Source of the DNA: Candidatus Palauibacter polyketidifaciens | GTDB taxonomy: Bacteria; Gemmatimonadota; Gemmatimonadetes; Palauibacterales; Palauibacteraceae | Direction: 5' to 3' | Assembly (NCBI RefSeq): GCF_947581785.1 | Contig: NZ_CANPVO010000018.1 | Span: forward strand, 1-64,000 | DNA length: 64,000 nucleotides | Part shown: positions 37,627 to 43,651 of the stretch, in pieces | Position numbering within the stretch: the stretch's first letter is position 1 | Layout: each line of letters opens with the position of its first letter | Position numbers and translations under genes: made by a program | Notes under the pieces: generated by a model | The model's database searches: none | What the model was told of the DNA's origin: nothing | Seen by the model: only the letters and a program-made list of their open reading frames with translations

Positions 37627-37833
37627 ATGCTGAAGCGTGCGAAGATGGCCGCGCTCGCGGCGATGATTGCCGTGGCGTCACTCGCCGTACCGGTTCCCCA
37701 CGCCCCCACAGGACCGGCACAAGTTGTCGCCGAGGAATCGGCCTTGAAGGTGTTTTTGATACCGCCCTTCGGATTTATCTGCTTCTGGTCGTGCGGTGAC
37801 AACTTGTTGTGCTGCCGAATCGTCATCGAGTAA
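37627..37833 (+). CDS. Short exported Cys-rich peptide 1
   Basis: A 68-residue peptide with a clear signal sequence (MLKRAKMAALAAMIAVASLA...) and a mature part of about 35 residues. The C-terminus carries ICFWSC then a CC pair (C52, C56, C62, C63) after a FLIPPF hydrophobic stretch. The strong AAGGAGG ribosome site just upstream supports real translation. A similar ending occurs in the next gene. The layout recalls NVEALA-type peptides in Bacteroidota, which sit near propeller lipoproteins, but the sequence is not recognisably the same. Role unknown; it may be a secreted disulfide or modified peptide. Confidence 0.72.
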   Translation: MLKRAKMAALAAMIAVASLAVPVPHAPTGPAQVVAEESALKVFLIPPFGFICFWSCGDNLLCCRIVIE

Positions 37834-37893
37834 GGCGCGTGCCGGGGGTCCGGTACGTGTGAAGGGACGTAAACACCAGCAAGGAGTAGGGTC

Positions 37894-38118
37894 ATGCGCG
37901 GACGAGGACGACGTATCACACGGAAGAACATGCTAGCGGCGTTTGCGCTGGCGATCGTAGCGAGCTTCGCTCTGCCTTTCACGGCATCGCCCGACCGCAC
38001 TTACGCCAGCGTGTCGGCACAGCTTGTTCTTCAAGCCCGCAAGATTCCTTTCATACCCGTCTGGATTTGTCTAGGCACGTGTGACGGCGGGCAGTGCTGC
38101 TACATCGGCCCGGCGTAA
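37894..38118 (+). CDS. Short exported Cys-rich peptide 2
   Basis: A 74-residue peptide with a basic N-terminus, hydrophobic signal segment (about 13-30) and a C-terminal WICLGTC...CC pattern (C59, C63, C68, C69). Its tail aligns with peptide 1: a Pro/aromatic hydrophobic stretch, I-C-x3-C, four or five residues, then CC. AAGGAG precedes the ATG. It sits 60 bases after peptide 1 and 14 bases before the propeller lipoprotein gene, so all three are likely one transcript. No function is known. Neither peptide shows a Gly-Gly leader or other export-processing motif beyond the signal. Confidence 0.72.
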   Translation: MRGRGRRITRKNMLAAFALAIVASFALPFTASPDRTYASVSAQLVLQARKIPFIPVWICLGTCDGGQCCYIGPA

Positions 38119-38132
38119 GACGGGAGCATACC

Positions 38133-39185
38133 ATGAACGCGCCCGGTTCACGCTGCATGCGAGGGGTGTTCCCGCTTATTGCTTTCGTGACGGTCGCATG
38201 TGCCGAAGATCCCGCACCACGCGTCTCGGCGGAACCGGTGGTGGACATGGAGGCGTTCGAGGAAGCGTTCGAGGTGGTGCGTGTGGTGACCTTGGAGGAG
38301 ACCGACGATGTAATATCGGTCACACCTAGGATCGTCGCCGACGGCCAGGATGGCTTGATCATAGTGGAACCGCAGGAGTCACAGGTTAGGGAGTACGGTC
38401 GCGATGGCACGCTCCGGGCCGTACATGGCCGGGCGGGCGGAGGACCGGGCGAGTTCCAGATGCCCATCTCGGCACGCCGTACGTCGGACGGTACGCTCGT
38501 CGTGCCGGACATCATGCTAGGTCGTCTGACGTTCCTCGGTGCGGACACGCTGGTCGACGCTGCGCCGGTGGCCATGCTGCTTGATGCGCATGACCTAGGA
38601 GGCGGAGAGCTTCTCTTGACAGGCATGGGGAACCAGTCGGCCGACCGCCCGCGTTTCCTTCACATATGGGACATGGAGGCCGACCGCATCGAGCGCAGCT
38701 TCTTCCCCATGGGTATCTCGGACCGGGATCGGCCCACGGCCAGCGCCTTCGCGTCGGCCAGCGCTTCTTTGGTCGGTGACACCATTTGGGCTGTGTGGTC
38801 CCTGTCCGATACGGTCTACCAGTACAGCTTGGGCGGTGACCTGTTATCCGCCATCCCTATCCCGCTCGTTCGACCACGTGCGGCGCTACCTAGCTTCGCC
38901 CGCCAGATCGACGTGTCGGAAGCGGGCACCGCATTGGACTCGGTTTCGCAAGTGTCCCGCGTATTAGTTGCTGAGGGCGACGGGCTGGCCGTTACCGTAG
39001 CGCACATGCGCGGCATCGAATACGAGTGGGATCTGGTGGTCATGGACCGCGACGGCACACCGCGAGTGCAGCTACGCGCCGCACCGAGGCTACTTCTTGT
39101 GGACCGTGACGAGTTTTGGTTCTCCGACCCGCAGGGTCTACAGCCCAACCGCATTCTAGTCGCCCGGCGAAGGGATGCACCATGA
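38133..39185 (+). CDS. Six-bladed beta-propeller lipoprotein (BF3164/TolB-like)
   Basis: A 350-residue probable lipoprotein: the signal ends VTVAC, giving a lipidated Cys. The mature protein has repeated blades of the kind ...IVEPQESQVREYGRDGTLRAV and G-GGPGEF, a motif typical of six-bladed propellers of the BF3164 group (the family name is recalled, not searched). The likely role is binding at the periplasmic side of a membrane. Leu codons TTA and CTA are frequent, unlike most of the window. ATG 38133 has GGGAG upstream. The stop overlaps the next gene (ATGA). Confidence 0.75.
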   Translation: MNAPGSRCMRGVFPLIAFVTVACAEDPAPRVSAEPVVDMEAFEEAFEVVRVVTLEETDDVISVTPRIVADGQDGLIIVEPQESQVREYGRDGTLRAVHGRAGGGPGEFQMPISARRTSDGTLVVPDIMLGRLTFLGADTLVDAAPVAMLLDAHDLGGGELLLTGMGNQSADRPRFLHIWDMEADRIERSFFPMGISDRDRPTASAFASASASLVGDTIWAVWSLSDTVYQYSLGGDLLSAIPIPLVRPRAALPSFARQIDVSEAGTALDSVSQVSRVLVAEGDGLAVTVAHMRGIEYEWDLVVMDRDGTPRVQLRAAPRLLLVDRDEFWFSDPQGLQPNRILVARRRDAP

Positions 39186-39661
39186 AGAACGTTTCCCTTC
39201 TTGCCGCGCTGTTCCTGTGCGTGGCATGCCGCCCACCGGGACCGACGGTTGTAGGTGACGCCGCCCCCGTAGCGGTCGCTACGGACCGCCCTGCGGTCGT
39301 GTGGGCGTTCAATGCAGACCGGTGTCTTAGCTGTACCCTTACGGACCCTTCTCGCATCCTGCGTGGCATTCAGCACCGTCACGGGGACGCCGTGGACTTC
39401 GTGGTCGTTGCCATCACCGCTGACCGCGAACGCGACGAAGCACTCGTGGACGCGTTCTTGCGGACGGCACGGCTGTCGGCCCGCGTTGAGTTACAAAGCG
39501 CGATGGCGTTCACGATGGCCTTTGGCCTAGGTGGACCCGAACCGGCGGTCTACGTGGCCGACGCAGGCCGTGTGGTAGCGGTTTACGGCGAGGATCTGGA
39601 AGGTTTGTCGGATCAAGTAGCTTCGCTCGTGACCCCGGACCTCGTGGAGGGAAAGACGTAG
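39182..39661 (+). CDS. Thioredoxin-like lipoprotein with CxxC motif
   Basis: A 159-residue protein with a lipobox (LCVAC16) and a single thioredoxin-like domain. Residues around ADRCLSCTL supply the pair C48-x2-C51 directly after a hydrophobic strand (PAVVWAF), the place where thioredoxin-fold proteins keep their active site. The classic WC..C is not fully preserved, so reductase or isomerase activity is a guess. Next to the exported Cys-rich peptides it could form or break their disulfides, or reduce a bound metal. It is overlapped with the propeller gene and followed two bases later by the sigma factor gene. Confidence 0.68.
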   Translation: MKNVSLLAALFLCVACRPPGPTVVGDAAPVAVATDRPAVVWAFNADRCLSCTLTDPSRILRGIQHRHGDAVDFVVVAITADRERDEALVDAFLRTARLSARVELQSAMAFTMAFGLGGPEPAVYVADAGRVVAVYGEDLEGLSDQVASLVTPDLVEGKT

Positions 39662-39663
39662 GT

Positions 39664-40191
39664 TTGCTAGAATCCCGTCAGGAGCGACGATTAGCCGACG
39701 AGATCGAGCAGGGCGAGAGCAAGCCGCTGGAGCGCCTGTACAAGGCGTATTCGAAGGAGTTGTACAACATCGCGTATCGCTTCACCGGGTCGACGGCGGA
39801 TGCTCGCGATGCCCTACATGACGTGTTCTGTCGGCTCCCCGAGGCTCTGCGGAGCTATGATCGGAGGCGCCCGCTCGGGCCGTGGCTCCGTGCTGTGACG
39901 GCTAACGCTGCGCTGGAGCGACTTCGGCGGGAGCGTCGTCGAAACGAAGTCTCCCTATCGGACGAATCGGTTAGCGGGGCGCTGGCTGGGGGGACCCCCG
40001 CCATAGATTCAATCGTGCTGGAAGAAGCGCTGTCCTCGCTCTCGGACGGATTGCGGCACGTGATCGTCCTGAAGGAACTCGCCGGTTATTCGCACCGGGA
40101 GATTGGCAAGCTGCTGGGAATAACGCCCGCAGCCTCACGGGTGCGGCTATGCAGGGCACGAGCGACCCTCCGTGCCATGTTCGAGGAGTAG
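39664..40191 (+). CDS. ECF-type RNA polymerase sigma factor
   Basis: A 175-residue extracytoplasmic-function sigma factor. Region 2 (about 20-85) shows YKAYSKELYNIAYRFTGSTADARDALHDVF, and region 4 (about 115-170) shows LSDGLRHVIVLKELAGYSHREIGKLLGI, giving the usual -10 and -35 binding helices. The start is TTG 39664, with GGAGG 12 bases upstream. It lies between the thioredoxin-like lipoprotein and its probable anti-sigma factor, so it most likely controls this cluster; the recognised promoter is unknown. TTA and CTA codons are used, as in its neighbours. Confidence 0.88.
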   Translation: MLESRQERRLADEIEQGESKPLERLYKAYSKELYNIAYRFTGSTADARDALHDVFCRLPEALRSYDRRRPLGPWLRAVTANAALERLRRERRRNEVSLSDESVSGALAGGTPAIDSIVLEEALSSLSDGLRHVIVLKELAGYSHREIGKLLGITPAASRVRLCRARATLRAMFEE

Positions 40192-40202
40192 GGGACTGTA
40201 CG

Positions 40203-42338
40203 ATGTCAACCGACAGACGAAACGAACACCTCGACGATCTGACCCTGAGCCGCTTCGCGGACGGCGAGTTATCTGTGCGTTCTTCTCGCCGCGTCCGGTC
40301 GCATCTTCGATCGTGCGAAGCGTGTCGCGAAGAAGTCCAGTTTATTCGCACCTTGAGCGCTGCGATCCGGAGCATTCCCTCTCCGAAGCCGCCGGACGAG
40401 TTGTTCGACGATCTCTTCCGCCAGGAGCCAGACGGTGCGGCGGTCGTCCAATTCCGGGCTCCGCAGCGGCGGTGGAGCGCGCTTTCCCGAGTTCCGTTCC
40501 TGTCGGCATGGGCCGTTCTGCCGGTGCTGATCGCGGTCGTTCTGGCGCTCGCGGTTGGAACCGACCGGGTGATGGCCGGCTCGAGCTCGCTGAGCCTTCA
40601 ATGGGAAGAGCCGGATGAGCTGGCGCTCCAGTATGAGACGGTCTCGTTCGCTGCAGAATCCCGCCTTCGCGCCAGGCTGCGCTACTGGGTCCCAGACTCG
40701 CTACGCTACGGCCAGACCGCGTCGGGATACGCCGTGGTCGAACTCTCCGGGCGGGGACCAGGTGTCTTCTCCGGCGCCGTGGACCTGCCGCCCGGCACCG
40801 CCTACGCCGTCGCCGCTGTCGAAGACCTGGCTGGAACCTACATCGACACCGACTTCGGCCGGCTCTGGGAATACCTTGAGACAGAAGAGCGGGAACGACC
40901 TACCTTGCAGGCGCGGCGCCACCAACTGCTGGCAACTTCCGAATTGAGCGCGGCCAGAACGGCAGCGGTCGCAGAGGAGGCAGCCGCACAGTTCCCCGAG
41001 CAGCCCGAGTTCCGGGTCTGGCAGTTGTTGTTCGCGCAGGGGGCGGTTCCACCCGAATCGCGGGATTCTCTCCTACGGGAACACGCCGCGCGCCTCGTGG
41101 CGATGGACCGGCTGGCTCGGGAAGGGAATCCCGACCCGGTGGAACTCGATGCTCTCCATCGCTACTCGGCGCTACTCGGGCGGCCGGACTTGGCGAGCTA
41201 CTGGTCGGACCAGCTGATGAGCCTGTACCCGCAACACGAAGCGGCGGTGCTGCTCCGCCTGCAAGCGATCGCCCGTTCCTCCATGACGACTCGAAGAAAG
41301 CTGGAGGCTCTCGAGGAGAGCTGGACGAGTGTGAGGGTGCCGATCACCGCGCAGATCGGACTCCGGCTCGCCCTCGAACTTGCAGAGCCCGACGTCGTCG
41401 GGATATGGCTGGATCGCCACTCGCGAGCCTCGGTGTTTCGTGACCTGACGTACGACGCTGAGCTTGCCCGGGATCTGATGGCCGTACCCAAGCTGGCGTC
41501 ACTCGCCGAAGTGTGGATCCTCGACCGGCTCGCCGATGGAGACCATCAACTGGAACCGGACCGGCCGCTGGATCAAGCCCGTCGGAACTTTCGAGCCGCG
41601 CGGAGCCGACTCCGCGCACAGCTCAACATCGACCTCGCCAATCTCCGACTCGTGCGAGGGCAGCTACGTGGGGCGCTCGAGGCGGCGGACAGGGCCGTTG
41701 AACAGACTTGGAGTTCCGAGGTCTTTCTCGAGGCGGCCGAGATCCATCGGGCTGCCGGCTCCGATCTCCGCGCCGCTGAATTGTTGTCGTTCGCTCAGGT
41801 GGACCCGATCACGCCCTCGAGTTCCCGTCCACGCACCGATCCGCCTGGGGGACTCCCCAGCCCTTCGGAGGGGGAACTGGCGACAGCTCGGGCGACCATG
41901 TACAACCGTGTCACGGCCACATTGCTCGACGAACACGTCGACCTCAATGCGCACATCCGGTTCGCGACGGGCACCGAGACGACGCTCCGCGATGCTGCGG
42001 GCGGGAGTCCCGTCGTAGTGGTGTACGCAGTACGACCCGACTTCGTAGCCGACGAAGCGTTAGCACTGCTGGACGCGAACCTGGAGCGGTTAGGTTCGGC
42101 CGGCGTGCAGGTTCTCCGCATAGCCCAGCAGACAGCCCCGGCCCCGTTGGAACGATCCGGCTTCGACTCACGCTTCCATTACGACGTGCGATACGAAGCC
42201 TGGGACAATCTTCGGGCGTGGCGCGAGGTCCAATACTTCGTGTTGGATTCGGGCCGAATCCGCCACCGCGGCGCGGATCTTGGAGAGGCCCTCCGCGTCT
42301 CTCTCGTGCTCTCGACACGAGCCGTCGCGTCCGATTGA
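40203..42338 (+). CDS. Membrane anti-sigma factor with large periplasmic domain
   Basis: A 711-residue protein. Residues 34-41 (H-x3-C-x2-C, in SHLRSCEAC) form a zinc-binding anti-sigma motif, and one membrane helix lies at about 99-119. The rest is predicted periplasmic: a beta-like region (about 120-240), a long helical stretch that looks TPR-like (about 240-540), and a C-terminal region (about 590-700) resembling a thioredoxin fold (SPVVVVYAVRP..., then QYFVLDSGRIRHRG). That fold has no Cys, so it could only bind, not do redox chemistry. Such a sensor arrangement is unusual for anti-sigma factors. It presumably holds back the sigma factor encoded just upstream. Confidence 0.7.
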   Translation: MSTDRRNEHLDDLTLSRFADGELSVRSSRRVRSHLRSCEACREEVQFIRTLSAAIRSIPSPKPPDELFDDLFRQEPDGAAVVQFRAPQRRWSALSRVPFLSAWAVLPVLIAVVLALAVGTDRVMAGSSSLSLQWEEPDELALQYETVSFAAESRLRARLRYWVPDSLRYGQTASGYAVVELSGRGPGVFSGAVDLPPGTAYAVAAVEDLAGTYIDTDFGRLWEYLETEERERPTLQARRHQLLATSELSAARTAAVAEEAAAQFPEQPEFRVWQLLFAQGAVPPESRDSLLREHAARLVAMDRLAREGNPDPVELDALHRYSALLGRPDLASYWSDQLMSLYPQHEAAVLLRLQAIARSSMTTRRKLEALEESWTSVRVPITAQIGLRLALELAEPDVVGIWLDRHSRASVFRDLTYDAELARDLMAVPKLASLAEVWILDRLADGDHQLEPDRPLDQARRNFRAARSRLRAQLNIDLANLRLVRGQLRGALEAADRAVEQTWSSEVFLEAAEIHRAAGSDLRAAELLSFAQVDPITPSSSRPRTDPPGGLPSPSEGELATARATMYNRVTATLLDEHVDLNAHIRFATGTETTLRDAAGGSPVVVVYAVRPDFVADEALALLDANLERLGSAGVQVLRIAQQTAPAPLERSGFDSRFHYDVRYEAWDNLRAWREVQYFVLDSGRIRHRGADLGEALRVSLVLSTRAVASD

Positions 42339-42368
42339 TGTAGTCACTCACCGAAAGGACCCAGAAAC

Positions 42369-42572
42369 ATGACTTGTAAGCGCTTGCTGACAGCCGCCGT
42401 GATCGCCCTCGTCACCGCGATCATCCCCGTCACAAACGAGACCAGCGCCGCATTTGGCGTGGAATTGTCGACCGCTGCCTGCGCGGAAGCGGGTTGTGGA
42501 TACGTGACCTGGGTGGACTGCATCTGTCCCGACATTCAGATGCCCAACCGTAGCCCGCAATGCGACGAGTAG
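42369..42572 (+). CDS. Short exported Cys-rich peptide 3
   Basis: A 67-residue peptide with a signal sequence (MTCKRLLTAAVIALVTAI...) and a mature part containing C38, C43, C51, C53 and C65. Spacing differs from peptides 1 and 2 (no CC pair), so it is a related type rather than a close copy. AAAGGA precedes the ATG at a usable distance. It follows the anti-sigma gene by 30 bases and overlaps the end of the next frame if that starts at 42560. Function unknown; again paired with a propeller gene. Confidence 0.65.
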   Translation: MTCKRLLTAAVIALVTAIIPVTNETSAAFGVELSTAACAEAGCGYVTWVDCICPDIQMPNRSPQCDE

Positions 42573-42583
42573 TCTCTGGTGGT

Positions 42584-43651
42584 ATGAGCAGGGCGTTGGC
42601 CAAATGGACCGTCGGCGGGGTCATCGCGGTCGTGATCTGCGCGCTGGGGCTGGTCCGGTCAACGGGGGAGGAGGCGAGGCCAGCGGTCCCGGTACGTCCG
42701 ACTCTCGTCCCCGAAGTCGTGTACTCTGACGACTCGCTGGGCTGGGTCGTCGACCTCGGGCTGGCAGGTGGGCGCCTCGTGGGCATCGACGCGTTGCTGG
42801 ACCCCAGTGTGCATGTCTTCGATCTCGGGAGCCTGGAGCGTCTGGCTTCCTACGGGCGGCGCGGCGACGGACCGGGCGAATTCAAGGACCCCGAACAGAT
42901 CGTGCCGGGAGGCACGGACTCGCCCGATGAGGTGTGGATTCTGGACGGCGTCCACCAACGACTGACGCGGCTATCCCTCGACGAGATCGTAACGGGATCC
43001 CTTGTCGAGCCCGAAACGTTCCAGATGGACGGCCCGAACGCCGGGTCGCTGGTCCGTGCCCCCGACAGCCACTGGTTCGCCGGTGGCTGGATCACCGGAG
43101 GCCGGGTGGCGCGGTACCGGCCTGATCGAAGCTACGATCGCACGATCCTCGGCTTTCCCGCGGGAGCCGCAGCGCCCGGAATGACACTCCTTCAAGCGTA
43201 CGAAAGCCGTGTTGTAGCGGACCCCGCCGGGGGCAGGCTGGCGGCGGCTACGCTCCTTGGAGGACTCCTCGAGATCTTCGACTACGATGGCGCGTCCATC
43301 GCGCAGGCCGCTGTCCCGGACGCCTTTCAGCCGACGTGGCGACAGGGACGATCGCGGGGCGGAAGGGCCGTCATGTCCCTGGGACCGGAGACGCGCTACG
43401 GATTCACGGATCTGGTCGCGACGGAGCGTCGCGTTTACGGCCTCTTCTCGGGACGTAGCGTGGCTGAGCCCGGAACACCTTGGGCCACGACGCAAGTTCA
43501 GCTCTACTCTTGGGACGGCGCCTACCTTGGAACACTGCAACTCGGCCGAGCTGCGGAGGCGATCACGGTGGACGCTTCCGACACCTGGCTCTACGCGAGC
43601 GGACCCGATCCCGAGCCGTGGGTCGGACGGTTTCGGCTGCCGAAACCATAG
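42584..43651 (+). CDS. Six-bladed beta-propeller protein 2, membrane-anchored
   Basis: A 355-residue protein with an N-terminal hydrophobic segment (WTVGGVIAVVICALGLV) acting as signal or anchor and a propeller made of repeats such as ...VHVFDLGSLERLASYGRRGDGPGEF, where the GDGPGEF turn recurs in this propeller family. It parallels the lipoprotein at 38133 but without a lipobox. ATG 42584 is chosen over 42560, which would overlap the peptide gene; neither has a strong ribosome site. Ligand and role are unknown. It ends convergently with the gene at 43676. Confidence 0.7.
   Translation: MSRALAKWTVGGVIAVVICALGLVRSTGEEARPAVPVRPTLVPEVVYSDDSLGWVVDLGLAGGRLVGIDALLDPSVHVFDLGSLERLASYGRRGDGPGEFKDPEQIVPGGTDSPDEVWILDGVHQRLTRLSLDEIVTGSLVEPETFQMDGPNAGSLVRAPDSHWFAGGWITGGRVARYRPDRSYDRTILGFPAGAAAPGMTLLQAYESRVVADPAGGRLAAATLLGGLLEIFDYDGASIAQAAVPDAFQPTWRQGRSRGGRAVMSLGPETRYGFTDLVATERRVYGLFSGRSVAEPGTPWATTQVQLYSWDGAYLGTLQLGRAAEAITVDASDTWLYASGPDPEPWVGRFRLPKP

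Follow-up and report, generated by a model that had tools for sequence, protein, structure and literature searches.

Eight genes are encoded on the forward strand (Table 1) of a 64,000-nucleotide stretch of DNA, hereafter called the window, from Candidatus Palauibacter polyketidifaciens (contig NZ_CANPVO010000018.1, positions 1 to 64,000). They specify three short exported peptides, two six-bladed propellers, a thioredoxin (Trx)-like lipoprotein, an ECF sigma factor, and an anti-sigma factor. The Palauibacter order (Gemmatimonadota) occurs in marine sediment, sponges, and corals (PMC10469786). Spacing across the cluster is tight: the start of the Trx gene overlaps the stop of propeller 1, 2 bases separate the Trx stop from the sigma start, and the start of propeller 2 can overlap pep3. 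An earlier sequence-only reading had placed the same eight genes, and all of its coordinates are confirmed. Genes were called with a simple codon-usage caller, and key genes were checked by profile matches. Profiles firmly identify the sigma factor, the zinc-finger anti-sigma factor, and propeller 2; as single sequences, none of the three peptides, nor propeller 1, nor the Trx-like lipoprotein, reaches the cut-off of any profile. The genomes used for comparison are mostly MAGs, and several of the neighbourhoods stop at contig ends.

Table 1. Features of the locus, with window coordinates
Feature	Coordinates	Strand	Evidence
pep1, module A exported peptide, 68 aa, tail C-x3-C-x5-CC	37627..37833	+	G004 orthologue; family in 22 loci
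pep2, module A exported peptide, 74 aa, tail C-x3-C-x4-CC	37894..38118	+	Orthologues in G004 and G235
Propeller 1, module A lipoprotein, NHL-type six-bladed	38133..39185	+	Profile A9; kept in 24/24 loci
Trx-like lipoprotein (module A), C48-L-S-C51	39182..39661	+	Cys conservation; weak ResA/YkuV profile matches; L204 fusion
ECF sigma factor, TTG start	39664..40191	+	PF04542, PF08281; sigma70-ECF
Anti-sigma factor	40203..42338	+	zf-HC2, ectodomain profiles, model
pep3, module B exported peptide, 67 aa, core C-x4-C-x7-C	42369..42572	+	Alignments; Ka/Ks 0.10-0.42
Propeller 2, module B, start 42560 or 42584	42560..43651	+	PF15869; six-bladed NHL-like model

Two modules that meet in one species

The cluster was previously taken to be a single system. 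Rather, it is made up of two modules, independent of each other, that are joined only in the Palauibacter polyketidifaciens species of the window. Module A (37627-39661) contains pep1, pep2, the NHL-type propeller, and the Trx-like CLxC lipoprotein. Module B (39664-43651) contains the sigma factor, the anti-sigma factor, pep3, and the PF15869 propeller. In genome G004, pep1, pep2, propeller 1, and Trx reside on a separate contig without sigma. Conversely, G007, many congeners, and a second locus of the window's own genome (G000:C1) carry sigma, anti-sigma, pep3, and propeller 2 without module A, usually with a 99-residue protein and DNA-binding regulators lying 3' of them. The same-species genome G235 carries a module B that is 99.5% identical to that of the window and a decayed module A, in which pep1 is absent and a deletion joins propeller 1 to Trx. 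No sigma gene lies beside module A in the other 23 loci of the examined set. A single eight-gene system is thus ruled out, as either module can exist without the other and module A has decayed where module B persists, and these separations make the eight-gene order local to the window species. Regarding relatives, each module recurs among them; it is the full eight-gene order that they lack. Likewise, the co-occurrence of peptide, propeller, and sigma that the sequence-only reading had suggested looking for in Gemmatimonadota is found in part: peptide–propeller pairs recur, accompanied by sigma in module B and without it in module A.

Two features of individual module B copies deserve mention. 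The second copy in the window's own genome (L069, 7280-12166) is complete, has a 33-base promoter-like motif, and is followed by a 99-residue protein and an ORF resembling a regulator. In G235 (L124, 8123-9500), approximately 2 kb with transposase-like genes is inserted 3' of propeller 2 relative to the window.

Peptides tied to particular propellers

Sequence conservation indicates that the peptides are real genes on which purifying selection acts: Ka/Ks ranges from 0.10 to 0.52, and orthologues exist across many genomes. Specifically, Ka/Ks against G004 is 0.23 for pep1 and 0.21 for pep2, among pep3 pairs it is 0.10-0.42, and the value of 0.52 for pep2 against same-species G235 comes from few changes. 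The peptides carry Sec-type signals, and their earlier description as conserved, exported, and Cys-rich stands. They match no family in Pfam or NCBIfam and none of the RiPP models; weak matches to COX6C and SecM (E 0.16-0.18) are dismissed as chance. The sequence-only reading had linked them to the NVEALA peptides of Bacteroidota. At E 0.5-1, PF14055 (NVEALA) matches neither the window peptides nor their relatives, and nothing in the genome scores above its cut-off; the link has no homology support, and NVEALA membership is ruled out.

Propeller 1 and Trx are kept in all 24 module A loci examined, and 22 of these loci encode exported peptides, 38 in all, with the tail C-x3-4-C-x4-6-CC. There are 1-3 diverged copies per locus, and the predicted mature length after signal cleavage is mostly 31-45 residues. 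The C-termini in the window are FIC-FWS-C-GDNLL-CC (pep1) and WIC-LGT-C-DGGQ-CC (pep2). As for the two other loci, L195 keeps the mature peptide region with a signal region that is not intact, and L208 lies close to a contig end. Outside module A, such a tail is almost absent, occurring in 3 exported ORFs in ~0.7 Mb, two of which adjoin other propellers.

Propeller 1 carries the lipobox VAC. Its profile, A9, matches the NHL domains of TRIM71 and Thin (E 1e-33 to 1e-27). Propeller 1 does not score above cut-off with PF15869 (TolB_like) or PF17170 (DUF5128); for the latter, the window protein reaches 10.9 bits against a cut-off of 22.9, and relatives reach up to 5e-7. The Trx-like partner proposed earlier is borne out as a lipoprotein with a conserved CxxC, present in 24/24 loci: across 22 sequences the second Cys is invariant and the first is at least 90% conserved, and the motif is CLxC or CFxC in all loci but one. 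Profiles built from this lipoprotein give weak ResA/YkuV matches (E about 0.015-0.09), nearly all to thiol-disulfide oxidoreductases, and Pfam Redoxin weakly matches one member of the set. In L204, propeller 1 and Trx are fused in one reading frame. A profile search across 395 genomes of the phylum places strong relatives of this Trx in ~20 of them, which belong to families f1, f6, and f8; the larger tally of 48 takes in weak general matches.

In module B, propeller 2 matches PF15869 (1.3e-12, 48.1 bits against a gathering cut-off of 29.2), and its structure model is six-bladed and NHL-like (pLDDT 76). A pep3-type peptide is present in 21/21 loci that possess sigma, anti-sigma, and propeller 2, namely in family f1 (the window, L124, L068-L076, L078-L083, and L085), f3 (L135), and f5 (L133 and L144). 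The pep3–propeller 2 pair is co-directional with sigma in f1 and f3 and convergent with it in f5, which marks the pair as a unit of its own. The conserved unit of module B is, thus, the pep3–propeller pair, and six loci (L269, L271, L272, L276, L278, and L282) possess it with no sigma seen nearby. Five relatives of propeller 2 (L274, L275, L279, L280, and L283) have no detectable peptide beside them. All 19 aligned pep3-type peptides share the core C-x4-12-C-x6-8-C, and the pep3 peptides of the genus have five cysteines, an odd number. The sequence-only reading was correct in calling pep3 a third exported Cys-rich peptide; its family, however, differs from that of pep1 and pep2. Together, the two modules show that the suggested tie between peptides and particular propellers is strict (24/24 module A loci keep propeller 1; 21/21 module B loci keep pep3), and the tie of such a pair to a sigma/anti-sigma pair holds in several lineages (f1, f3, and f5). 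Among random propellers of the superfamily, 2/20 have such a peptide neighbour, and this count rules out a rule that all such propellers come with peptides.

Variants on this theme also exist. In L278 (1048-1365), one pep3-type ORF contains the Cys core twice and precedes two tandem propellers. Small exported Cys-rich peptides of other types adjoin six-bladed propellers at L092 (10527-12130), L075 (1669-1905), L088 (6550-6816), and L230 (1509-1679).

The sigma/anti-sigma pair and its Trx-fold ectodomain

The sigma factor is of the ECF type, with sigma-70 regions 2 and 4 only (PF04542, 2e-14; PF08281, 4e-12; sigma70-ECF, 1e-26). The adjoining anti-sigma gene encodes an HxxxCxxC zinc finger that scores above cut-off with zf-HC2 (4e-7) and has conserved H34, C38, and C41; its close relatives include proteins from MAGs labelled Candidatus Palauibacter. 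The anti-sigma protein is laid out as a zinc finger (1-56), a TM segment (~105-122), a beta domain (129-216), a TPR region (235-570), and a Cys-less Trx fold (584-706). The Trx fold is recognized by profile (3kcm, 2e-8; AhpC-TSA in members, 6e-9), and a fold search with the ectodomain model (mean pLDDT 71) retrieves TPR proteins and a peroxiredoxin. The active site is graded. Specifically, some ectodomain-only lipoproteins possess CGPC, most anti-sigmas of other families possess CxxS or similar, and the f1 anti-sigmas, that of the window included, have a Trx fold without Cys. This stepwise loss hints, at the level of sequence, at a route from redox enzyme to sensor.

The ectodomain is not confined to anti-sigma factors. 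In L154, L155, and L160, BlaI-BlaR1-like (M56) operons hold a lipoprotein that is homologous to the anti-sigma ectodomain (CGPC or similar) together with six-bladed propellers; L154 (987-5875) has the order BlaI, BlaR1 (M56), ectodomain lipoprotein, propeller. Two kinds of transmembrane switch therefore share the ectodomain, and propellers lie near both.

How far does the pair depend on peptides? It is widespread in the class, with matches in 90 of 395 genomes, many through the zinc finger alone, and most class pairs have no adjoining peptide or propeller; thus, the sensor can work without either. The greater age and wider spread of the sigma/anti-sigma pair, compared with the peptides, fit an alternative in which the peptide–propeller pairs are output only: envelope effectors such as a redox buffer, a metal chelator, or a structural complex, with those that follow sigma being regulon members and the anti-sigma factor sensing something else. 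The existence of the pep3–propeller pair without sigma, and of module A without sigma, fits it too. However, the convergent f5 pair lies outside the sigma operon and is still adjacent to it, and the ectodomain also occurs beside propellers in BlaR1-type operons. We consider the output-only explanation possible, if on the unlikely side.

A promoter-like motif is conserved upstream of sigma in relatives. The motif, AAGTTTTGCCCTCGGGNGGNNNWTWANNTGTAG, is present 5' of sigma in eight module B loci with at most 3 mismatches. In G002 it is recognized by eye and by a weight matrix for which G002 was among the building sequences, and G004 has a degenerate form. Across 16 genomes, the motif occurs at only two other sites, one each in G004 and G007, and a control pattern at none. 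Both sites are 5' of the gene for a putative AraC-type regulator, similar to a gene that neighbours module B, and this regulator (L247, 581-1465; L253, 581-1465) is the only other gene in the 16 genomes found downstream of the motif. The motif is absent upstream of the window sigma gene because module A abuts sigma there. The idea that module A runs from the sigma promoter motif is rejected, as none exists 5' of pep1 in the window or in G004.

Candidate function and comparison with known systems

Our best reading of the sequences is that the peptides are dedicated exported disulfide peptides, bound by the propeller, with a Trx-fold partner that handles or senses them. Both modules would follow the same logic: tiny secreted peptides with a fixed Cys pattern, a dedicated six-bladed propeller situated outside the inner membrane, and a Trx-fold partner. 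For module A, we envisage two disulfides in each mature peptide once it is in the envelope. The CLxC lipoprotein would act on the peptides as an oxidase, reductase, or isomerase, and the mature peptide would be kept or displayed by the propeller. The Trx fold of module B forms the non-catalytic end of the anti-sigma ectodomain; what it, or the TPR solenoid, could detect is the peptide, the propeller, or the redox state of these. Sensing would release the ECF sigma factor, and since the sigma operon encodes the sensed peptide and propeller, a feedback loop could result. That propeller and Trx-fold partner jointly handle the peptides, with sigma feedback, is plausible, and we hold it tentatively. 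In its favour count the strict pairings in both modules, the scarcity of such peptides beside random propellers, the L204 fusion, the kept CLxC or CFxC, purifying selection on the peptides, the anti-sigma Trx fold with its graded active site, and the motif 5' of sigma in relatives. Against it count the many sigma/anti-sigma pairs with neither peptide nor propeller beside them, the five propeller 2 relatives that lack a peptide, the odd cysteine number of pep3, and the missing motif 5' of the window sigma gene. More speculatively, and with greater doubt, the modules may represent an undescribed class of Gemmatimonadota envelope signalling, in which disulfide mini-peptides, each with a propeller receptor of its own, serve as ligands or report redox state and are read by catalytic (CxxC) or degenerate, anti-sigma-fused Trx folds, with a related ectodomain beside BlaR1-type receptors.

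Alternatively, the peptides could be bacteriocin-like weapons, with the propeller and Trx as maturation or immunity proteins. The peptides are indeed small, exported, and Cys-rich, they vary as 1-3 diverged copies per locus, and RiPP precursors lie near two loci. Nonetheless, they match no bacteriocin family, the gene calls around the modules (the neighbours being partly profile-scanned) include no modifying enzyme or dedicated exporter, and in f6 the module A cassette occupies one fixed chromosomal site in most genomes. We judge antagonism improbable. Regarding the RiPP-like genes, L207 (326-670) encodes an NHLP-leader peptide (TIGR03793), and L271 (2705-3331) encodes two Cys-rich RiPP-like proteins with KIxLDLDAL-type starts and no family match.

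The Mau proteins offer one comparison. MauD matures MauA of methylamine dehydrogenase, and MauB, MauD, and MauA are a propeller, a Trx-like protein, and a small exported Cys-rich polypeptide from one operon, the same kinds of gene as in module A. By analogy, a periplasmic enzyme could be built from the peptide as small subunit and the propeller as large subunit, the former matured by Trx; we regard this as highly improbable, as the peptides are much shorter, with no sequence match and no universally conserved Trp or Tyr, and propeller 1, whose invariant residues are mostly structural, has profiles that match NHL six-bladed domains rather than MauB and retrieve no Mau chain in the PDB.

Returning to disulfide peptides read by a Trx-fold partner, we note likenesses to better-known systems. 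TlpA/ResA-type oxidoreductases share the extracytoplasmic Trx fold, with CxxC in module A and CGPC in some ectodomain homologues; however, the module A Trx matches their profiles weakly, and the window anti-sigma domain lacks both Cys. RsiW/DdvA-type pairs of ECF sigma and transmembrane zinc-finger anti-sigma share the sigma domains, the zinc finger, and the TM segment. Unlike them, the anti-sigma factor here combines a beta domain, a TPR solenoid, and a degenerate Trx fold in its ectodomain, and a peptide–propeller pair is attached.

The closest parallel in layout comes from Bacteroidota, in which NVEALA peptides (PF14055) occur near BF3164-type propellers. In both cases, a short exported Cys-rich peptide adjoins a six-bladed propeller, and propeller 2 belongs to PF15869; the peptides here do not match PF14055, and a sigma/anti-sigma or Trx partner is added. 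The peptide–propeller pairing is not categorically new because it loosely resembles this arrangement. The peptides themselves are two new families, outside Pfam and NCBIfam. Our search of open-access papers on NVEALA, BF3164, peptide–propeller, and sigma/Trx/TPR systems returned nothing relevant; within that literature the assembly is undescribed, as the sequence-only reading had supposed. Two exported peptide families strictly tied to particular propellers provide a first handle on the function of such pairs, a question that extends to the NVEALA peptides of Bacteroidota. If the peptide is the ligand, extracellular control of a sigma factor would gain a new mechanism. That each peptide family is inherited with its own propeller and a Trx-fold partner is suggestive of a novel form of peptide or redox signalling beyond the cell boundary.
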